Below are positions 31,046-61,800 of a stretch of DNA of 64,000 nucleotides, piece by piece. The notes under the pieces were generated by a model, which saw only the letters and a list, made by a program, of their open reading frames with translations, searched no databases and was not told where the DNA came from. Origin of the DNA: Kiritimatiellia bacterium (GTDB taxonomy: Bacteria; Verrucomicrobiota; Kiritimatiellia; JAAZAB01); the NCBI GenBank assembly GCA_028718125.1, contig JAQUMN010000004.1, forward strand, positions 62,001 through 126,000. The letters are read 5' to 3'. Within the stretch, counting starts at the first letter, position 1. Every line of letters starts with the position of its first letter. A program made the translations under genes and the position numbers.

Positions 31046-31272
31046 ATCGGGCGTAGCCCCGATCACGCCGCTTCGACGGGTATCGGGACGAAGCTCGATG
31101 CAACCGTGTGTCGAATTCGGTTTCCGCCGGAGGCGGATTCGGAAAAGCAAGGCAAGCTTGGGCCGAATGCGGGTGCGCCGCGCGAAGCATTGGACTCGTG
31201 TCCCTGCGAGGGCGGGAAACCCGCAGGCGGACCAAGATCGCCATTGCCTTTTCCGAACCGAATTCGACACAC
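31046..31272 (+). ncRNA. structured element family SE, copy A (5' leader of glgA)
   Basis: P0 ATCGGGC/GCTCGAT, linker GATGCAACC, P1 GTGTGTCGAATTCGGTT/AACCGAATTCGACACAC, side hairpin TCCGCCggaGGCGGA, apical GGAC-TCGT-GTCC. Confidence 0.7.
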
Positions 31273-31322
31273 TGCCGACGGAAGGCAAGGGCCGGGCGGA
31301 ATGACAGAGGAGGAATATACCC

Positions 31323-32838: not shown

Positions 32839-32864
32839 CAGACGACAGACGACGGACGACAGAC
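32839..32864 (+). repeat. low-complexity CAGACGACAGACGACGGACGACAGAC repeat
   Basis: Inverted relative to 33046-33094 (shared 15-mer CGTCCGTCGTCTGTC). Confidence 0.8.
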
Positions 32865-32967
32865 ACCAGCCATGAGAAGAAAGAAAGCGCACGGAAAACC
32901 AGATGTGATCAACACGTGATTCGTAGCCACGCCGGCTTGTCCCGCCGAAGCGGATTCGCGCTAGCGG

Positions 32968-35136
32968 ATGAGGACGTGGAGTAATTTCATGGTTACAACA
33001 CCTAAACGTCGAAAGTCCGCTTGCCCCCAGCGTCCCGCCTCCGCTGTCCATCGTCCGTCGTCTGTCATCCGTCATCTGTCATCCGTCGTCTGTCCTCCGC
33101 CTTCCGTCCCCCGCCTGGTCCGTGACGATCCCTACCTGGCGCCCTATGCCGATTGGATCGCGCGGCGGGTTCAATTGGCCAAGGAAACCGAGACGCGCCT
33201 GACAGGCGGGACGATGGCACCCGCCTGCAACGCTGTGCGTAGCACGGCGGGCAGGTTAGCCGATTTCGCCGCCGGGCATGAATATTTCGGGTTGCACCGG
33301 CAGGGAGACGCATGGGTCCTGCGCGAGTGGGCGCCCAACGCCACGGCCATCACGCTGATCGGCACCTTCTCGCAGTGGCGCGAGGATCCTGCCCTGGCCC
33401 TGCGCCGCTTGAACCTCGATGGCGTGTGGGAGCTGCATCTGCCCGCTGCAACCCTTAAGCACGGCGACCTCTATCGCCTGCGGATGCACTGGCGCGGCGG
33501 GAGCGGCGACCGCCTGAGCGCCTATGCCCGGCGCGTGGTCCAGGACGAACACACCAAGATTTTCAACGCCCAGGTCTGGGCACCGGCCGATCCTTATCTC
33601 TGGCGGCACACATTCCAACGGTCCGGCGGCTGCAGGACGCCGCTGATCTACGAAGCGCACGTCGGCATGGCCCAGGAAGAGGGCAAAGTCGGGACATACC
33701 GGGAATTCAAGGAAAAAATTTTGCCGCGCATCGTGGCGGCGGGTTACAACACGATCCAGCTCATGGCCATCCAGGAGCATCCCTATTACGGCTCGTTCGG
33801 CTACCACGTGACCAATTATTTCGCCGCCTCGTCCCGCTTCGGCACGCCGGAGGAACTGAAGGACCTTGTGGATACAGCCCACGCGGCGGGACTCGCGGTC
33901 ATCATGGATTTGATTCATTCCCACGCGGCGCGCAATGAGGTGGAAGGCTTGAGCCGGTTCGACGGCACGCTCTTCCAATATTTCCACGAAGGCCCGCGCG
34001 GATTGCACGAGCTTTGGGATTCACGTTGTTTCGACTACGGCAAACCCCAGGTACTGCATTTCCTGCTCTCCAACTGTCGGTTCTGGCTGGATGAGTACCG
34101 GTTTGACGGCTTCCGGTTCGACGGCATCACCAGCATGCTCTACCGGCATCATGGACTCGGCAAGGCGTTCACTTCTTATGCCGATTATTTTAATGAAAGC
34201 GTGGACGAACAGGCCCTCGCCTATCTGACCCTGGCCAATAAGGTCATTCACGCCGTGCGCCCCGACGCCCTGACCGTGGCGGAGGATATGAGCGGCATGC
34301 CGGGCCTGGCCGCGCCCGTTGAGCGCGGCGGCGTGGGCTTCGACTTCCGGCTGGCCATGGGCATTCCGGATTACTGGATCAAGCTCACCAAGGATACCCG
34401 CGACGAGGACTGGTCCATGAGCACCCTGTGGCACGAACTCACCAATCGCCGCCGCGACGAGCGCACCATCAGTTACGCCGAATCGCACGACCAGGCCCTG
34501 GTGGGCGACCAAACGCTGATCTTCCGCCTGATCGAGCGGGACATGTATAATCACATGGCTCTCGACTCGCGCACCCTGCAGGTGGATCGCGGGCTGGCCC
34601 TGCACAAGATGATCCGGTTGGCCACGCTGGCCACGGCGGGCAATGGGTATCTCACCTTCATGGGCAACGAGTTCGGCCACCCGGAATGGATTGATTTTCC
34701 GCGCGAAGGCAACAACTGGTCCTACCATTACGCCCGGCGCCAGTGGCGCCTGCGGGATGATCATTCCCTTGTTTATCATTTCCTGGCCGATTTCGACAAG
34801 GCAATGATTGAGATGGCGCGGCTCGCCAATCTGCTGGATGATCCCGACCTGCGCCTGCGCGTGGAGCACGGCGACGACAAAGTGCTGGGCTTTGAGCGCG
34901 CGGGTCTGTTGTTCCTGTTCAACTTCCACCCGGAGAAATCTTATCCCGACTATCCCGTGGAGGCCACGCCGGGCGAATACCGGCTGATCTTGGACAGCGA
35001 CGCGCCTTTTTTCGGCGGCCACAGCCGGCTTGCGCCCAACCAGACCTATGTTGCGGCGCCCGACGCCAAGGGGCGCACGCTGCTCACCGCCTATCTTCCC
35101 TCCCGCACTGCACTGGTTCTGCAAAAGCTGGCATGA
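32968..35136 (+). CDS. glgB: 1,4-alpha-glucan branching enzyme
   Basis: LIYEAHVGMAQEEGKVGTYREF, DEYRFDGFRFDGITSMLYRHHG, AEDMSGMPG; start 32968 or 32989; N-terminal ~45 aa partly repeat-derived. Confidence 0.95.
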   Translation: MRTWSNFMVTTPKRRKSACPQRPASAVHRPSSVIRHLSSVVCPPPSVPRLVRDDPYLAPYADWIARRVQLAKETETRLTGGTMAPACNAVRSTAGRLADFAAGHEYFGLHRQGDAWVLREWAPNATAITLIGTFSQWREDPALALRRLNLDGVWELHLPAATLKHGDLYRLRMHWRGGSGDRLSAYARRVVQDEHTKIFNAQVWAPADPYLWRHTFQRSGGCRTPLIYEAHVGMAQEEGKVGTYREFKEKILPRIVAAGYNTIQLMAIQEHPYYGSFGYHVTNYFAASSRFGTPEELKDLVDTAHAAGLAVIMDLIHSHAARNEVEGLSRFDGTLFQYFHEGPRGLHELWDSRCFDYGKPQVLHFLLSNCRFWLDEYRFDGFRFDGITSMLYRHHGLGKAFTSYADYFNESVDEQALAYLTLANKVIHAVRPDALTVAEDMSGMPGLAAPVERGGVGFDFRLAMGIPDYWIKLTKDTRDEDWSMSTLWHELTNRRRDERTISYAESHDQALVGDQTLIFRLIERDMYNHMALDSRTLQVDRGLALHKMIRLATLATAGNGYLTFMGNEFGHPEWIDFPREGNNWSYHYARRQWRLRDDHSLVYHFLADFDKAMIEMARLANLLDDPDLRLRVEHGDDKVLGFERAGLLFLFNFHPEKSYPDYPVEATPGEYRLILDSDAPFFGGHSRLAPNQTYVAAPDAKGRTLLTAYLPSRTALVLQKLA
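33046..33094 (+). repeat. low-complexity GTCCRTCGTC/TGTCATCC repeat within the glgB N-terminus
   Basis: tgtccatcgtccgtcgtctgtcatccgtcatctgtcatccgtcgtctgtcc. Confidence 0.85.
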
Positions 35137-35222
35137 TGACTTGACCGGCGACATGTGCTATATTTGCGCGTGTATTTTCTGTAAGGCCTCAGTTATGTGG
35201 GTAAGAGTGTGAACTTCAATGC

Positions 35223-35290
35223 TGTCATTCCCGCGAAAGCGGGAATCCAGCATTGATTTTTCTGGATTCCCGATCAGGTCGGGAATGACA
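35223..35290. repeat. palindromic repeat R2 (GTCATTCCCGCGAAAGCGGGAATCC type)
   Basis: Module A 35223-35249 and module B 35263-35290; same modules inside mfd in opposite order. Confidence 0.9.
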
Positions 35291-38465: not shown

Positions 38466-38621
38466 CACGGGCGTTTCCAACTTGGAAGGCGGCGGCCCCG
38501 ACCGCCGCGAGGGCGTAAGGCGAAAAGCGCCTTCGCAACACAGCCCGTCAGTCTAAGCCGCACATTTGGGGCGTCTTGCCCCTCCTTGACAAGCGCCTGC
38601 CATTATGTTCATATTCCGCTT

Positions 38622-38790
38622 TTTGCAGCCTAAATCCGGCCCTCTTTCCGGGGGCGGATGCGGGGGACCCACCTTCCTCGGGACATCCTGGGGATGGGGC
38701 GAAAGGCGCCGGGTATTCTAACCGGCGCCAAGGCTACTTCTAAAGCCGAGCCCATCAGCTAACCTCGTCGGCCATTGGAAGGGCAATCCT
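38622..38790 (+). ncRNA. cyclic di-AMP (ydaO/yuaA) riboswitch
   Basis: GCCTAAATCCG...CGGATGCGGGGGACCCA...TGGGGCGAA...AAGGCTACTTCTAAAGCCGAGCCCATCAGCTAACCTCGTCGGC matches the conserved class core; precedes a KimA-like gene. Confidence 0.93.
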
Positions 38791-38949
38791 CTAGATCCGC
38801 ATGGGCGGCGCCCACGAATACCCGCAGCGATAGTGTCTTATCTATCGGGAATCGTCATGAAAAAATAGTTTTTTGTCATGCCTGTTACCCGTTGGTTACA
38901 TAAATGATATAGCCTAAAATAAAACCGTTGATTTCCACGTCAACGATAT

Positions 38950-39151
38950 ATCGGGCGTAGCGCGGCGCGAAGCCCGATGCTACCGTGTGGCGAATTTGGT
39001 TTCCGCCGGAGGCGGATTCGCAAAAGCAAGGCAGGCTTGGGCTGAATGTGGGTGCGCCGCGCGCAGCGCTATACTCGTGTATGCGCAAGCGCGGCAAACC
39101 CGCAGGCGGCCCAAGATCGCCGCCGCCTTTTGCGAACCTAATTCGCCACAC
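38950..39151 (+). ncRNA. structured element family SE, copy B (between the riboswitch and kimA-like)
   Basis: P0 ATCGGGC/GCCCGAT, linker GATGCTACC, P1 GTGTGGCGAATTTGGTT/AACCTAATTCGCCACAC, side hairpin TCCGCCggaGGCGGA, apical ATAC-TCGT-GTAT. Confidence 0.7.
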
Positions 39152-39233
39152 TGCCGCGAGAGAAAATGAATGATTCCGTAATCCTTCAGGAATGATCCGT
39201 CTGCCGCAAGCGGACATGCAAAGGTCGTGTGCC

Positions 39234-50529: not shown

Positions 50530-50797
50530 GTCCGGCGCCGCATTGGAAGCGGCGGCATTCGGGTTGTCTCTGCCAGGGCGCAGGTTGCAATTTCAAGTGC
50601 AAAAGAATGGCCGCTGCAAACTTTCTGCACATGTCTCTTCGCTTGAATAAAACCCGATCATTTCGGTGATATCAATGAAATGATTCATCATTCATTAAAG
50701 CTTATATACTGGTAGTTCTTGATTGCTTTCAATGTATCGCGCGCTCATTTTCTGCCCCCTCTGACCGCTTACGATCTTTCCTTCTCATTTTCCAAAC

Positions 50798-50831
50798 AAC
50801 ATTCTAACATTCTGCAGAATGTTAGAATGTT
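50798..50831. promoter_or_regulatory. perfect 34-bp palindrome (putative operator) at the 3' end of the HTH gene
   Basis: AACATTCTAACATTCTGCAGAATGTTAGAATGTT is identical to its reverse complement. Confidence 0.8.
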
Positions 50832-51088
50832 CTCATGAACCTCAGGAAGGATCTGCCGTAAGGCGAAAGGGAATGGGCGACCTGGCGGCCGCGGTATTGC
50901 TTGTTCAAAAGGCCGGCCTGAACCAGCGAGCGCGTGTGTTGCGAAATGGTTTTCATGTTGGCGCCAAGCACGCCGGCGAGCTTTTCAACCGTAATGCCGT
51001 CGTTTTGCTCAACGACGCGCAAAATGGCAATGCGCCGATAATTGGCCGCTCCCTTAAAATGCCGCTCCAGTTGTTTTGGTGTTTTCAT
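50822..51088 (-). CDS. small winged-HTH (ArsR-like) regulator
   Basis: ANYRRIAILRVVEQNDGITVEKLAGVLGANMKTISQHTRSLVQAGLLNKQYRGRQVAHSLSPYG. Confidence 0.85.
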   Translation of the reverse strand: MKTPKQLERHFKGAANYRRIAILRVVEQNDGITVEKLAGVLGANMKTISQHTRSLVQAGLLNKQYRGRQVAHSLSPYGRSFLRFMRTF

Positions 51089-51109
51089 ATGTGATGCCCA
51101 AGCAAATAT

Positions 51110-51143
51110 AACATTCCAATATTCTGCAGAATGTTAGAATGTT
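51110..51143. promoter_or_regulatory. near-palindromic operator upstream of the HTH gene
   Basis: AACATTCCAATATTCTGCAGAATGTTAGAATGTT, 32/34 identical to 50798-50831; overlaps a TTGACA -35-like hexamer on the minus strand. Confidence 0.8.
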
Positions 51144-51303
51144 GTCAAGAAAGGAAAACGATCGTGTTCGTTACATTCCACGCCGGGGCGGCAATTATTC
51201 GTGTGTAATATCCCCTTCGCCAAGGGGCACCGGTGGGGTCAGGTGCGCGGGCCATAAAAGGCAAATCTGCAAACAACGCGCAACTTTGAGATACGTGCTT
51301 CTC

Positions 51304-55617: not shown

Positions 55618-55673
55618 GGTGATTTCGTAATATGGTTATGCTATGTTTTTTGCGTATTCCACCAGCAACGTAG

Positions 55674-55895
55674 CGCATTTCGTTCGCAACGGGCGCGTCA
55701 TTTTGCCTCGTCTGCGGACTTCCCGATCTCGCGCATACACATGTATAGCGCATCGCTCGGCGCGCCCTCATCCGAAGCAAACTGGCGTGTCCGTTGCGAA
55801 CCACGGCCAGAGCCGTGGACGCGAAATGCGTTCCGTGGTCACATCCGCCTTCGTCCCGATACCCGCCTAAACGGCGTGACCGGGACTACGGCGGA
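55674..55895 (-). ncRNA. structured element family SE, copy C (5' leader of ettA)
   Basis: Minus strand: P0 TCCGCC/GGCGGA, linker GATGTGACC, P1 CGCATTTCG/CGAAATGCG + CCGTTGCGAA/TTCGCAACGG, side hairpin CCACGGC/GCCGTGG, apical ATAC-ATGT-GTAT. Confidence 0.65.
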
Positions 55896-55965
55896 CAAGT
55901 CGTGTTGTGCCCAACGCGAGGAAAAAAATCCGTGTTCATCCGTTGTTAAAAATGATTTTGTCTCG

Positions 55966-57747: not shown

Positions 57748-57790
57748 ATGTTCTTTAAGGTGCTCTGTTATCTGCAACCCAACAAGCTCT

Positions 57791-57996
57791 GCGGAATGGG
57801 CCAAACAGATCTCGCGTGATCCTGACCCGTCGGCTATGTTCTCGCGACTGGCGCATACACGGGTATTGCGCCAGCCGCGACGCCTTGCCGCCAAGTCAGT
57901 CTAACGCGTTCCCGTTTGGGTCCCGATCGGGAAACGCATCGGGACGACCCAATCCGCATCGCGGTTCATCCGCCAGGCCGCTGTGCGGCCTGGCGG
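57791..57996 (-). ncRNA. structured element family SE, copy D (divergent; 5' leader of typA)
   Basis: Minus strand: P0 12-bp CCGCCAGGCCGC/GCGGCCTGGCGG, linker GATGAACC, P1 GCGGATTGGG/CCCATTCCGC (9/10), hairpin GTCCCGAT/ATCGGGAC, apical ATAC-CCGT-GTAT within CTGGCGC/GCGCCAG. Confidence 0.5.
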
Positions 57997-58395
57997 AAAA
58001 GAGCTTGTCTACGGGCCAAGCCAGATATACACGTGCAAATGTATGCCCTGCTCGAGAGGATTCTATAAAAGAGTTCCAAACAGCGCAAAGGTATTAGCAG
58101 AAAACCGGGAAGATGCAAGCAACAGTTACCCGAAAGCTCATACGGCTCGGGGCCGCCCGCCCTCCAGAAGAATCCTCTCGTGAGGCTCAATGACGTTCCA
58201 TGGAAAGCGACGGGGCTCCGTCGCCGCGTAGGCGAGGATTCTTGGCGCCGGATTGCGCTTGTCTACCCAGTGCCGCATGGTATAGATTTTATGCTCATGA
58301 GAGGAGTTACCCAAGTCGATTTTGAGGCATAATTTCCTGCTCAACATAAGAAAGACACGATGCGCTGATTTGTCAGGACCAAGATCTCTCGACAT

Positions 58396-58814: not shown

Positions 58815-61800
58815 ATGTTCACCCTTCACATCACGCCCGACATGCGCCGGAAATTGGAAGCCGCGCTGGTTGAAAAGGGCCGGTGCAGGCTCGCCGCCAT
58901 GTCCTATTCCGCCACGGCCTTCCTGGCGCTGGATATGCTCGCCGAGTTCCGGCGTACGGTGGTGGTAGTCACCGACAGCATGCACTCGCTGGACGAAATG
59001 CGCCGGAACCTGCTGGCCCTGGCCGGCGCGCACCCGGAGCGCATTTTATATTATCCCGCCTGGGAAACGCTGCCCGGGAGAGCAAACGGACGCCAGACGC
59101 CAGACGCCAGACGCCAGACAGGAGAAGAAGGATACCAGAAGCGAGAAGACGGAAAACTGAAAACGGGAAACGGACGCCAGAAGCACGAGGGCGTTCAAAC
59201 GGAGGTGGTCGGCGAACGCCTGCAGACCCTGGAACGGCTAAGCGCACTCCAGGCGCCGGTGGTCATCGCCACCTGCGTGCAGGCCCTGATGCAGATGGCG
59301 CTCTCTCCCGCCGCGCTCAAGGCTCACACCTTCCGGGTCGCACTCGGTGAGGAGCATGACCCGGAAACGCTGGCCAAGCAACTTGAGCAAACCGGCTATG
59401 CTTTCGAGCCGGAAGTCCAGGCCAAGGGTCAGGCCGCCTGGCGCGGCGGACTCCTCGATGTCTGGCCGCTTAACGAGGCGGCCCCGTTCCGAATCGAATT
59501 TGTCGGCTCCACGGTGGAAACGATCCGCTCGTTCGATTCCGCCAGCCAGCGTTCGTTCAAACGCGAGAAGGAAGCGATACTTCCGCCAGTCGACGAATGG
59601 AGTTTGATGAGGGCAACGCCGCGTGAGGCTTGCCCGCCTCTGGAGGGGCACGCCTATAAAATCCCGCCGGGTCAGGGGACCCGGCCTACAGAAAATTATA
59701 GGCCCGGTGCCCACACCGGGCGCACCGAGGCCGAAGCACATTGCCTTTTCATGAATTACCTGCCGCCGGAACTGATTTATTTCTGGTCGGAACCCGTGAC
59801 CGGCGATTTTTCATCCGCCGCCCGCCATCCTACTAGTATCCGCCATCACGCGGCCATCTACCAGGAAGCTTTGGACGAAGCCAAGGTCCATGACCTGACC
59901 ATTCCCTTCACCCGGATTCACCAAGTTATCATGGAAAATCCGCGCGCATGGCAATGCCTGCCGGATCCGGTGTTCGATATCGCGGATGAAGTCGAAGAGC
60001 AAGTTGGGCCGCCACTGATAGAGACGAAAAACACTGGATTCCCGATCAAGTCGGGAATGACAAACCATGCCACGTCTGTTCTGTCATTCCCGCGAAAGCG
60101 GGAATCCATTCCATGTTCTGAATCTCCCGCACATCAAGCTTCGACCGCCGACTGGCCCCCGCCCGCACCGAATGTGGATCTAGGCTTCCGATCCGTAACC
60201 GACCTGGCCGCCCCGCGCCGCGACCTGCTGACGCCGGACATCTTTGCCGAGCATCGCCGCCAGTGGCTGGCGAGTCTGGCCGAACGCGCTCAGCACGGCT
60301 TGCGCGTGCATATCTTTTTTTATACCCAGGGGGCATTGGACCGGTTCCGCGAGATGAACCCGGAGCCCGCTTTCCATTTGCATGTGGGGATGCTTTCGGA
60401 TGGCTTCATGCAAGCGGATCTTCAACTGGCCGTGCTCTCCGAATCCAACCTGCTGGGCCGGCCAAAATTGCTTCCTGACCGCGCCGCGCGGACACGTCCA
60501 ACCTCGCGGAGAGCCGGGGCTGGGACGTCGGCGGGGGAAACCATTACCGACTGGACCAACCTGGAGCCGGGCAATCTCGTGGTACACGTGGATCACGGCA
60601 TTGGCCGGTACCTAGGGCTTTATGAGATCATGTTCAACGGTAAGCGCCAGGAGGCGCTGGCCATTGAATATGCCGACAAGGCCAAGCTCTACGTCCCCGT
60701 GTCGCAGGCCCACCTGCTGAGCCGTTATGTCGGCGTGGGCAAGCACGCGCCCCCGCTGCACCGGCTGGGCAGCGCGCGCTGGTCGCGCGAAAAGGACGCC
60801 GCCGAGCGCGCCGTGCGCGATTTAGCCGCCGGCCTTCTGGAAATCCAGGCCGCGCGCGAATCAATGGCCGGGTTCGCTTTCCAGAGCGATACTCCCTGGC
60901 AGAACGAATTTGAGGCATCGTTCCCTTACCAGGAAACCGATGACCAGGAACGCGCCATCCACGACGTCAAGCGCGACATGGAAGCCAGCCGGCCCATGGA
61001 CCGGCTGATCTGCGGAGATGTCGGCTACGGCAAGACCGAGGTGGCCATGCGCGCCGCCTTCAAGTGCGTCATGAGCGGCAAGCAGGTGGCCGTGCTCGTG
61101 CCGACCACTGTCCTGGCCCAACAGCATTACAACGTGTTCGCCGAACGCATGGCGGCCTACCCGGTGCGTGTGGAGCTGCTCTGCCGATTCCGCACGCTCC
61201 AGGAACAGGGAACCGTCGTGCGCGCGCTTTTCACGGGCGCCGTGGATATCGTCATCGGCACGCACCGGCTGATCCAGCCGGACGTGCGTTTCAAGGACCT
61301 CGGGCTGGTGATTATCGACGAAGAACAGCGGTTCGGCGTCGGCCACAAGGAGCGCTTCAAGCATCTCCAGCAGCTCGTGGACGTGCTGACGCTTACAGCC
61401 ACGCCCATCCCGCGCACGCTTTACATGAGCCTGACGGGCGCCAAGGAAATCAGCGTGATCCAGACCTCGCCCAAGGCCCGCCAGCCCATTGAAACCATCG
61501 TGGCGAAAGCCGAAGACCCCGTCATCCGCGACGCCATTTTGCGCGAGCTGAACCGGGGCGGTCAAATTTATTACCTGCACAACCGCGTTCATTCCATTGA
61601 GCATGTTCGCGCGCGTCTGGAAAAACTTGTGCCTGAGGCTCGCATGGTCGTCGCCCACGGCCAGATGCCGACCTCGGTGCTGGCGCACATCATGCAGGAT
61701 TTTGCGCGCGGCGATTATGACCTTATCCTGTGCACGACGATCATTGAAAGCGGGCTGGACATTCCAAACGTCAACACGATCCTCATCGACCGGGCCGACC

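Follow-up and report, generated by a model that had tools for sequence, protein, structure and literature searches.

Small non-autonomous transposons of Kiritimatiellota carrying a conserved structured module that is probably RNA

Introduction

The stretch of DNA analysed here, 64,000 nucleotides from a Kiritimatiellia bacterium (contig JAQUMN010000004.1) and referred to throughout as the window, contains four similar structured elements, each in front of a different gene. A preliminary description, made from the sequence alone, treated them as a family of four RNA-level cis elements held at a fixed position and orientation upstream of start codons, with a structured mobile repeat as the main alternative. 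The question raised by this locus is whether such elements are regulators of the genes behind them, mobile DNA, or mobile DNA with a structured content of its own.

Results

Structured elements in the window

All four elements were recovered at the places proposed for them. Copies A to D fold far below shuffled sequences, with folding-energy z values of -7.2 to -9.1, and each is matched by a covariance model. This model, R1, was built from 23 copies in the genome that holds the window (alignment A2), including A, B and C and excluding D. Copies A, B and C, all three inside the model, reach E 1e-31 or better, and copy D, left out of it, scores 70.6 bits (E 2.5e-14). The sense orientation of the four copies ahead of glgA, a kimA-like gene, ettA and typA was likewise borne out. 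The hairpin originally outlined is present, but the repeated unit is longer than the hairpin. The features of the window are as follows.

31046..31099, + strand: P0 base hairpin of copy A, upstream of the core (sequence and fold)
31097..31276, + strand: structured core of copy A, in front of glgA (covariance-model match and comparison of relatives)
38617..38788, + strand: c-di-AMP riboswitch RF00379, upstream of copy B and outside the repeat (Rfam match)
38950..38978, + strand: P0 base hairpin of copy B (sequence and fold)
38976..39155, + strand: structured core of copy B, between the c-di-AMP riboswitch and the kimA-like gene (covariance model and Rfam scan)
55664..55845, - strand: structured core of copy C, in front of ettA, CGCATTTCG subfamily (covariance model and comparison of relatives)
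55844..55896, - strand: P0 base hairpin of copy C (sequence and fold)
57782..57970, - strand: diverged structured core of copy D, between a promoter-like sequence and the typA start (covariance model and leader alignments)
57970..57996, - strand: P0 base hairpin of copy D (sequence and fold)
58091..58118, - strand: promoter-like TTGCAT...GCTAATA, which precedes typA directly in the relatives G003 and G008 (alignment)

Copies A and B belong to a subfamily termed alpha. Copy B is inserted between the c-di-AMP riboswitch and the kimA-like gene, the presumed target of that riboswitch (38617-39155), and may disturb or extend its expression platform.

Other repeats were noticed in the window. Two inverted-repeat blocks around AACATTCTAACATTCTGCAGAATGTTAGAATGTT stand about 280 bp apart at 50789-51152, in direct and inverted relation, and may represent a pair of operators or mark where a small element starts and stops. 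A short palindromic repeat pair, ATTCCCGCGAAAGCGGGAATCCA with CTGGATTCCCGATCAGGTCGGGAATGACA, occurs twice in opposite order (35213-35290 and 60034-60108). Degenerate low-complexity stretches of the GACGACAGACGACGG type are found at 32841-33097, in many intergenic gaps of the genome and beside cores.

Fold and covariation

The P0 hairpin and the linker GATGNNACC are followed in the module by a long stem bearing a side hairpin, by internal loops that are conserved, and by an AC-UC-NN-GU hairpin at the apex; the conserved core comprises 180 nt and 60 pairs. Across 91 copies from the window's own genome, its genus, its family and other families, 58 of the 60 pairs exhibited changes on both sides. 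In these copies, 93.7% of the paired cells were pairable, compared with 73.2% in shuffles and at most 43% with slid partners, and the covariation score was 0.561, against 0.203 for shuffled and at most 0.098 for slid structures; the alignment was fitted to the model and leans towards its structure, although the stems are mostly ungapped. The compensatory changes first seen in four copies are therefore real and far beyond chance. Among the unpaired positions, A251, A252, A272, U273 and C134 (alignment A5) are invariant or nearly so in the 91 sequences.

The mismatches that remain are asymmetric. In 137 copies, G-U pairs numbered 322 and A-C pairs 161, about 2:1 on one strand, and G-U exceeded A-C in 57 individual sequences, with the reverse in 15. 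Since a cruciform in double-stranded DNA is indifferent to strand, and a transcript or one DNA strand is not, this pattern indicates strand-specific selection. The fold is under selection on one strand, and separately from the ends of the element. The wobble excess fits RNA, but a single folded DNA strand would give it too.

Family size and distribution

The family extends well beyond the window. The four copies are all related, as had been proposed, but they belong to about 58 real copies found with model R1 in the 4.13-Mb genome; a sequence search with copy B as query returned 41 matches there. Congeners hold 20-46 copies per genome. With a broader covariance model, R2, the core was found in 48 of 347 genomes and 35 of 121 genera of the class Kiritimatiellota, so that the model search of genome and relatives proposed in the preliminary description recovered the family widely. 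A phylum-wide draw with R2 gave one weak partial match outside the class. In a pattern search of 85,462 genomes, carriers were nearly all metagenome-assembled genomes (MAGs) of Kiritimatiellaeota, Lentisphaerae or Verrucomicrobia, and 2.9 million viral contigs were free of the pattern. The apical pattern is also matched by single contigs labelled Methylococcaceae and Clostridia (loci L220 and L243), for which misbinning and chance are both possible.

The comparison with Rfam, also proposed at the outset, gave no family matching the element above its gathering threshold, group I introns included; the c-di-AMP riboswitch at 38617-38788 is the sole Rfam match in the window. A literature search, with most subscription journals beyond its reach, found no published account of such an element in Kiritimatiellota. 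The family is one of dispersed small mobile DNA elements of one bacterial class, Kiritimatiellota, as the following comparisons of sites and ends illustrate.

Empty and differently filled leaders in relatives

The leaders that hold copies A, C and D are empty or differently filled in close relatives. The glgA leader, site of copy A, is element-free in G003 and G001, and in G004 it carries a beta-type element instead, with a small membrane-protein gene. The ettA leader, site of copy C, holds no element in G003 or G008; in G004 it contains an alpha-type element 62% identical to copy C between flanking proteins that are 96% identical. In G003 and G004 the syntenic stretches lack the kimA-like gene in front of which copy B lies. 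The clearest insertion is that of copy D: the typA leader has no core in G003, G004 and G008, and in G003 and G008 it is short, with a conserved TTGCAT...TGCTAATA stretch directly before the start codon. In the window's genome, copy D and its surroundings sit between this stretch and the typA start codon. The elements move, and the structured mobile repeat named earlier as the alternative is the better description, though the fold is constrained beyond what mobility explains.

In G004, the typA leader (L257, about C259:9900-10300) contains an alpha-type tail, TTGGGTTGC...GGCGGGCACAGCCCGCGTTAG, with the core absent, perhaps a remnant after loss of the hairpin. Between ettA and typA at the same locus (C259:6950-8260), two inverted cores flank an apparently frameshifted GNAT acetyltransferase gene, as though the gene had been cargo. 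In G163 (L318, C197), a 23S-5S rRNA operon is followed by a core copy at a distance of a few hundred bases.

Terminal repeats and target duplications

Units with recognisable ends are MITE-like, about 350-470 bp long, with the core towards the right end. Gamma units start with GGGTGTAAG and end with CTTACACCC, and are flanked by 9-bp target duplications at three sites (GAGAGAAGC, CTTGACACC and AGGGCAGCA), with 8 of 9 positions matching at a fourth. Beta units possess the terminal repeat GGTTCTTCCG and 7-8 bp duplications (AGAATATA and AAACTTA). Units of G145, a genome from another family, carry the terminal repeat CAGGGCAGACGCATCTT and perfect 10-bp duplications at nine units. G163 units have the matching ends CGAGTGGGGTGCATG; a clear duplication was not seen among them. 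The terminal repeats differ between families, placing unrelated sequences around the same core. The units thus combine the attributes of MITEs: terminal inverted repeats in the gamma, beta, G145 and G163 units, target duplications in three subfamilies (gamma, beta and G145), short length, many copies and no transposase gene.

A blind search for target duplications over all copies, by way of shared 9-mer words, found such words at 19, compared with a control mean of 8.4 and maximum of 16. Because this excess is modest, the claim of mobility is based on the units with matching ends. In the alpha subfamily, copies A and B included, terminal repeats and duplications were not found, and the MITE membership of A and B therefore follows from the relationship of their cores, not from direct proof; they presumably move as the other subfamilies do. 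Recurrent neighbouring open reading frames were surveyed in the genus and in distant genomes, and neither an autonomous partner nor a transposase was found beside the cores or at matching ends, which speaks against a transposase adjoining the core.

Constraint on the core and core-less units

The module changes more slowly than its surroundings in several genomes. Among ten G145 units, 7 singletons occurred at 184 core sites and 38 at 210 outer sites (p 5e-6); the core is less variable although richer in G+C, and its variation is below that of the terminal repeats as well. In G346 and G163 the core is likewise more conserved than the arms (p 2e-5 and 1e-3). In the window's own genome the same tendency appears only weakly, and a beta pair there displays the reverse pattern, with 8 of 8 differences inside the core.

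Covariation without selection, arising in a neutral palindromic repeat by template switching between the hairpin arms, was considered and appears very improbable. Long inverted repeats can undergo arm-against-arm correction, and copy 49 is changing fast within its core, both of which such a process would allow. Arm-to-arm correction would, however, erase the internal loops, several of whose positions are invariant or nearly so, and the reading is also at odds with the G-U excess over A-C and with cores more conserved than arms in three genomes.

G145 additionally contains a 411-bp variant with one inner strand replaced and a core-less form of 229 bp, lacking the hairpin that otherwise stands between two CGCG words. 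Several sites carry the core-less form, and at one of them the duplication is perfect. If it moved as such, the core is dispensable for transposition; repeated loss after insertion at the same point is the alternative. Because the same core occurs with unrelated pairs of terminal repeats, it behaves as a passenger module shared between transposon families; it also has a constraint of its own.

Folded DNA strands and integron sites

Selection on one strand suits a folded DNA strand as well as RNA, and the fold could in principle work as single-stranded DNA, forming a hairpin for a recombinase or HUH-type enzyme (attC-, IS200/IS605- or REP/RAYT-like), with covariation reflecting selection for mobility. 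Two RAYT-like Y1 transposases in the window's genome, the frequency of integron integrases in the class, small cargo genes preceding some cores, and an alpha subfamily without recognised terminal repeats are all compatible with this reading. It is nevertheless unlikely. In units with known ends, mobility is accounted for by terminal repeats and 7-10-bp duplications, which enzymes of these kinds are not known to make. The occurrence of the 229-bp core-less form at several sites speaks against it as well, as does the finding that integrase presence does not track core presence.

Small open reading frames before some cores, such as the GNAT gene and genes for small membrane proteins, had prompted consideration of an integron cassette site. 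Integron integrases scored above the family cut-off in 25 of 58 relatives searched; they occur in many core-free genomes, and cores occur in genomes without a full integrase, and on this survey the cassette site was set aside. A full integron integrase (456 bits) is encoded in the window's own genome (L280, C34:34656-35597).

Gene context and orientation

In same-direction gaps of the window's genome, 26 copies are sense and 16 antisense, while convergent gaps hold 7 copies and divergent gaps 6; with a further 60 copies, taken from three congeners and a single genome of another genus, the tally becomes 58 sense versus 23 antisense, and 15 convergent-gap versus 11 divergent-gap copies in the pooled genomes, all counts being approximate since genes were called with a simple home-made caller that missed genes at two copies. 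Alpha copies are co-oriented with genes 53 to 13 (p 7e-7, subfamilies assigned by inspection), and beta and gamma copies have no clear sense bias. Since copies are as common in convergent gaps as in divergent ones, the bias is for lying in the direction of transcription and not for being near start codons. Among the genes that follow sense copies are rny (ribonuclease Y), feoB, nadE (NAD synthase), yicC, phoU, hisC, recA, trpD, scpA, uvrA and ribAB, besides glgA, ettA and typA. They are unrelated housekeeping genes, and a common pathway is absent.

The fixed position and orientation upstream of start codons, on which the cis-element proposal had relied, did not hold: copies lie in both orientations, and convergent gaps are not rarer than divergent ones. 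What survives of that proposal is the conserved fold, its covariation and the strand-specific wobble. A fixed 5'-leader regulator as the general rule is ruled out by gene context and by the empty sites in relatives. A modified form, in which a cis-regulatory leader RNA (riboswitch-like or protein-binding) serves downstream genes and was spread by transposition, is improbable. The alpha sense bias agrees with it, as do the location of copy D between a promoter-like sequence and the typA start and the recA, hisC, trpD, rny and ettA leaders, which are each occupied in two or more species, in some cases by copies of different subfamilies. Yet the downstream genes are unrelated, convergent gaps are as copy-rich as divergent ones, and the glgA, ettA and typA leaders lack the element in close relatives.

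Discussion

The elements are best explained, with reasonable probability, as a superfamily of small non-autonomous transposons carrying a conserved structured module, probably RNA, and IStron-like in plan. Their terminal inverted repeats would be cut and joined by a transposase acting in trans, with the 7-10-bp target duplications left behind. Judged from sequence comparison, the folded molecule is probably RNA, and the module would most likely act in transcripts that extend across the insertion, for example as a structure for processing or insulation by which an insertion beside a gene becomes tolerable; in some cases it may set the expression of the gene behind the insertion. Cleavage of transcripts by RNase III or RNase E would be the most economical idea of how the fold acts. 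A more far-reaching reading is offered tentatively, with the balance leaning against it: an undescribed mobile structured RNA of Kiritimatiellota may have allied itself with several unrelated DNA transposons and may act as RNA in host transcripts, for instance through its removal from them by processing, or as an insulator of the host gene.

MITEs are commonly regarded as decaying ends that carry no content; here an internal module keeps an elaborate fold throughout a class, with differing transposon ends around it. The novelty lies in a previously undescribed combination of mobile DNA with a conserved structured module, probably RNA, in which the internal fold and not the ends is conserved. 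Modules sit in the leaders of core genes (recA, rny, ettA and typA), which makes it possible to test whether RNA is what selection acts on in a mobile element. The many natural pairs of one gene leader with and without the element allow the effect of insertion to be measured, and the covariance model can be used for annotation.

Comparison with known systems

Correia elements and ERIC are bacterial MITEs, short, non-autonomous, intergenic and present in many copies (PMC10969869). Bacterial MITEs have terminal inverted repeats, with target duplications in several lineages; their transcripts can form stable hairpins, and some are known to influence mRNA by way of its cleavage by RNase III or RNase E (PMC10969869). 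The present elements resemble Correia and ERIC elements in length, non-autonomy, intergenic location, copy number, terminal inverted repeats and target duplications. What sets them apart is the module inside, which has conserved loops and 60 covarying pairs: it recurs throughout a class in elements whose ends are unrelated, and in three genomes its conservation exceeds that of those ends.

REPs are described as 20-40 bp intergenic palindromes associated with RAYT transposases (PMC3733652). Intergenic palindromes and RAYT-like genes are both found in the window's genome, but the unit here is 350-470 bp long with target duplications, in place of a GTAG-tagged palindrome of 20-40 bp. Integron attC sites share with the core a strand-specific imperfect hairpin and, at a few loci, proximity to small cargo genes; the difference is that units whose ends are known carry terminal repeats and lie between 7-10-bp duplications.

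IStrons combine a group I intron with an insertion sequence, an arrangement in which a single kind of RNA allied itself with several insertion sequences and rendered their insertion harmless (PMC4227781). The likeness lies in the alliance of a module, here probably RNA, with several families of DNA transposons. In contrast to IStrons, the module is no group I intron according to Rfam, is located mostly between genes and travels with no accompanying transposase gene.
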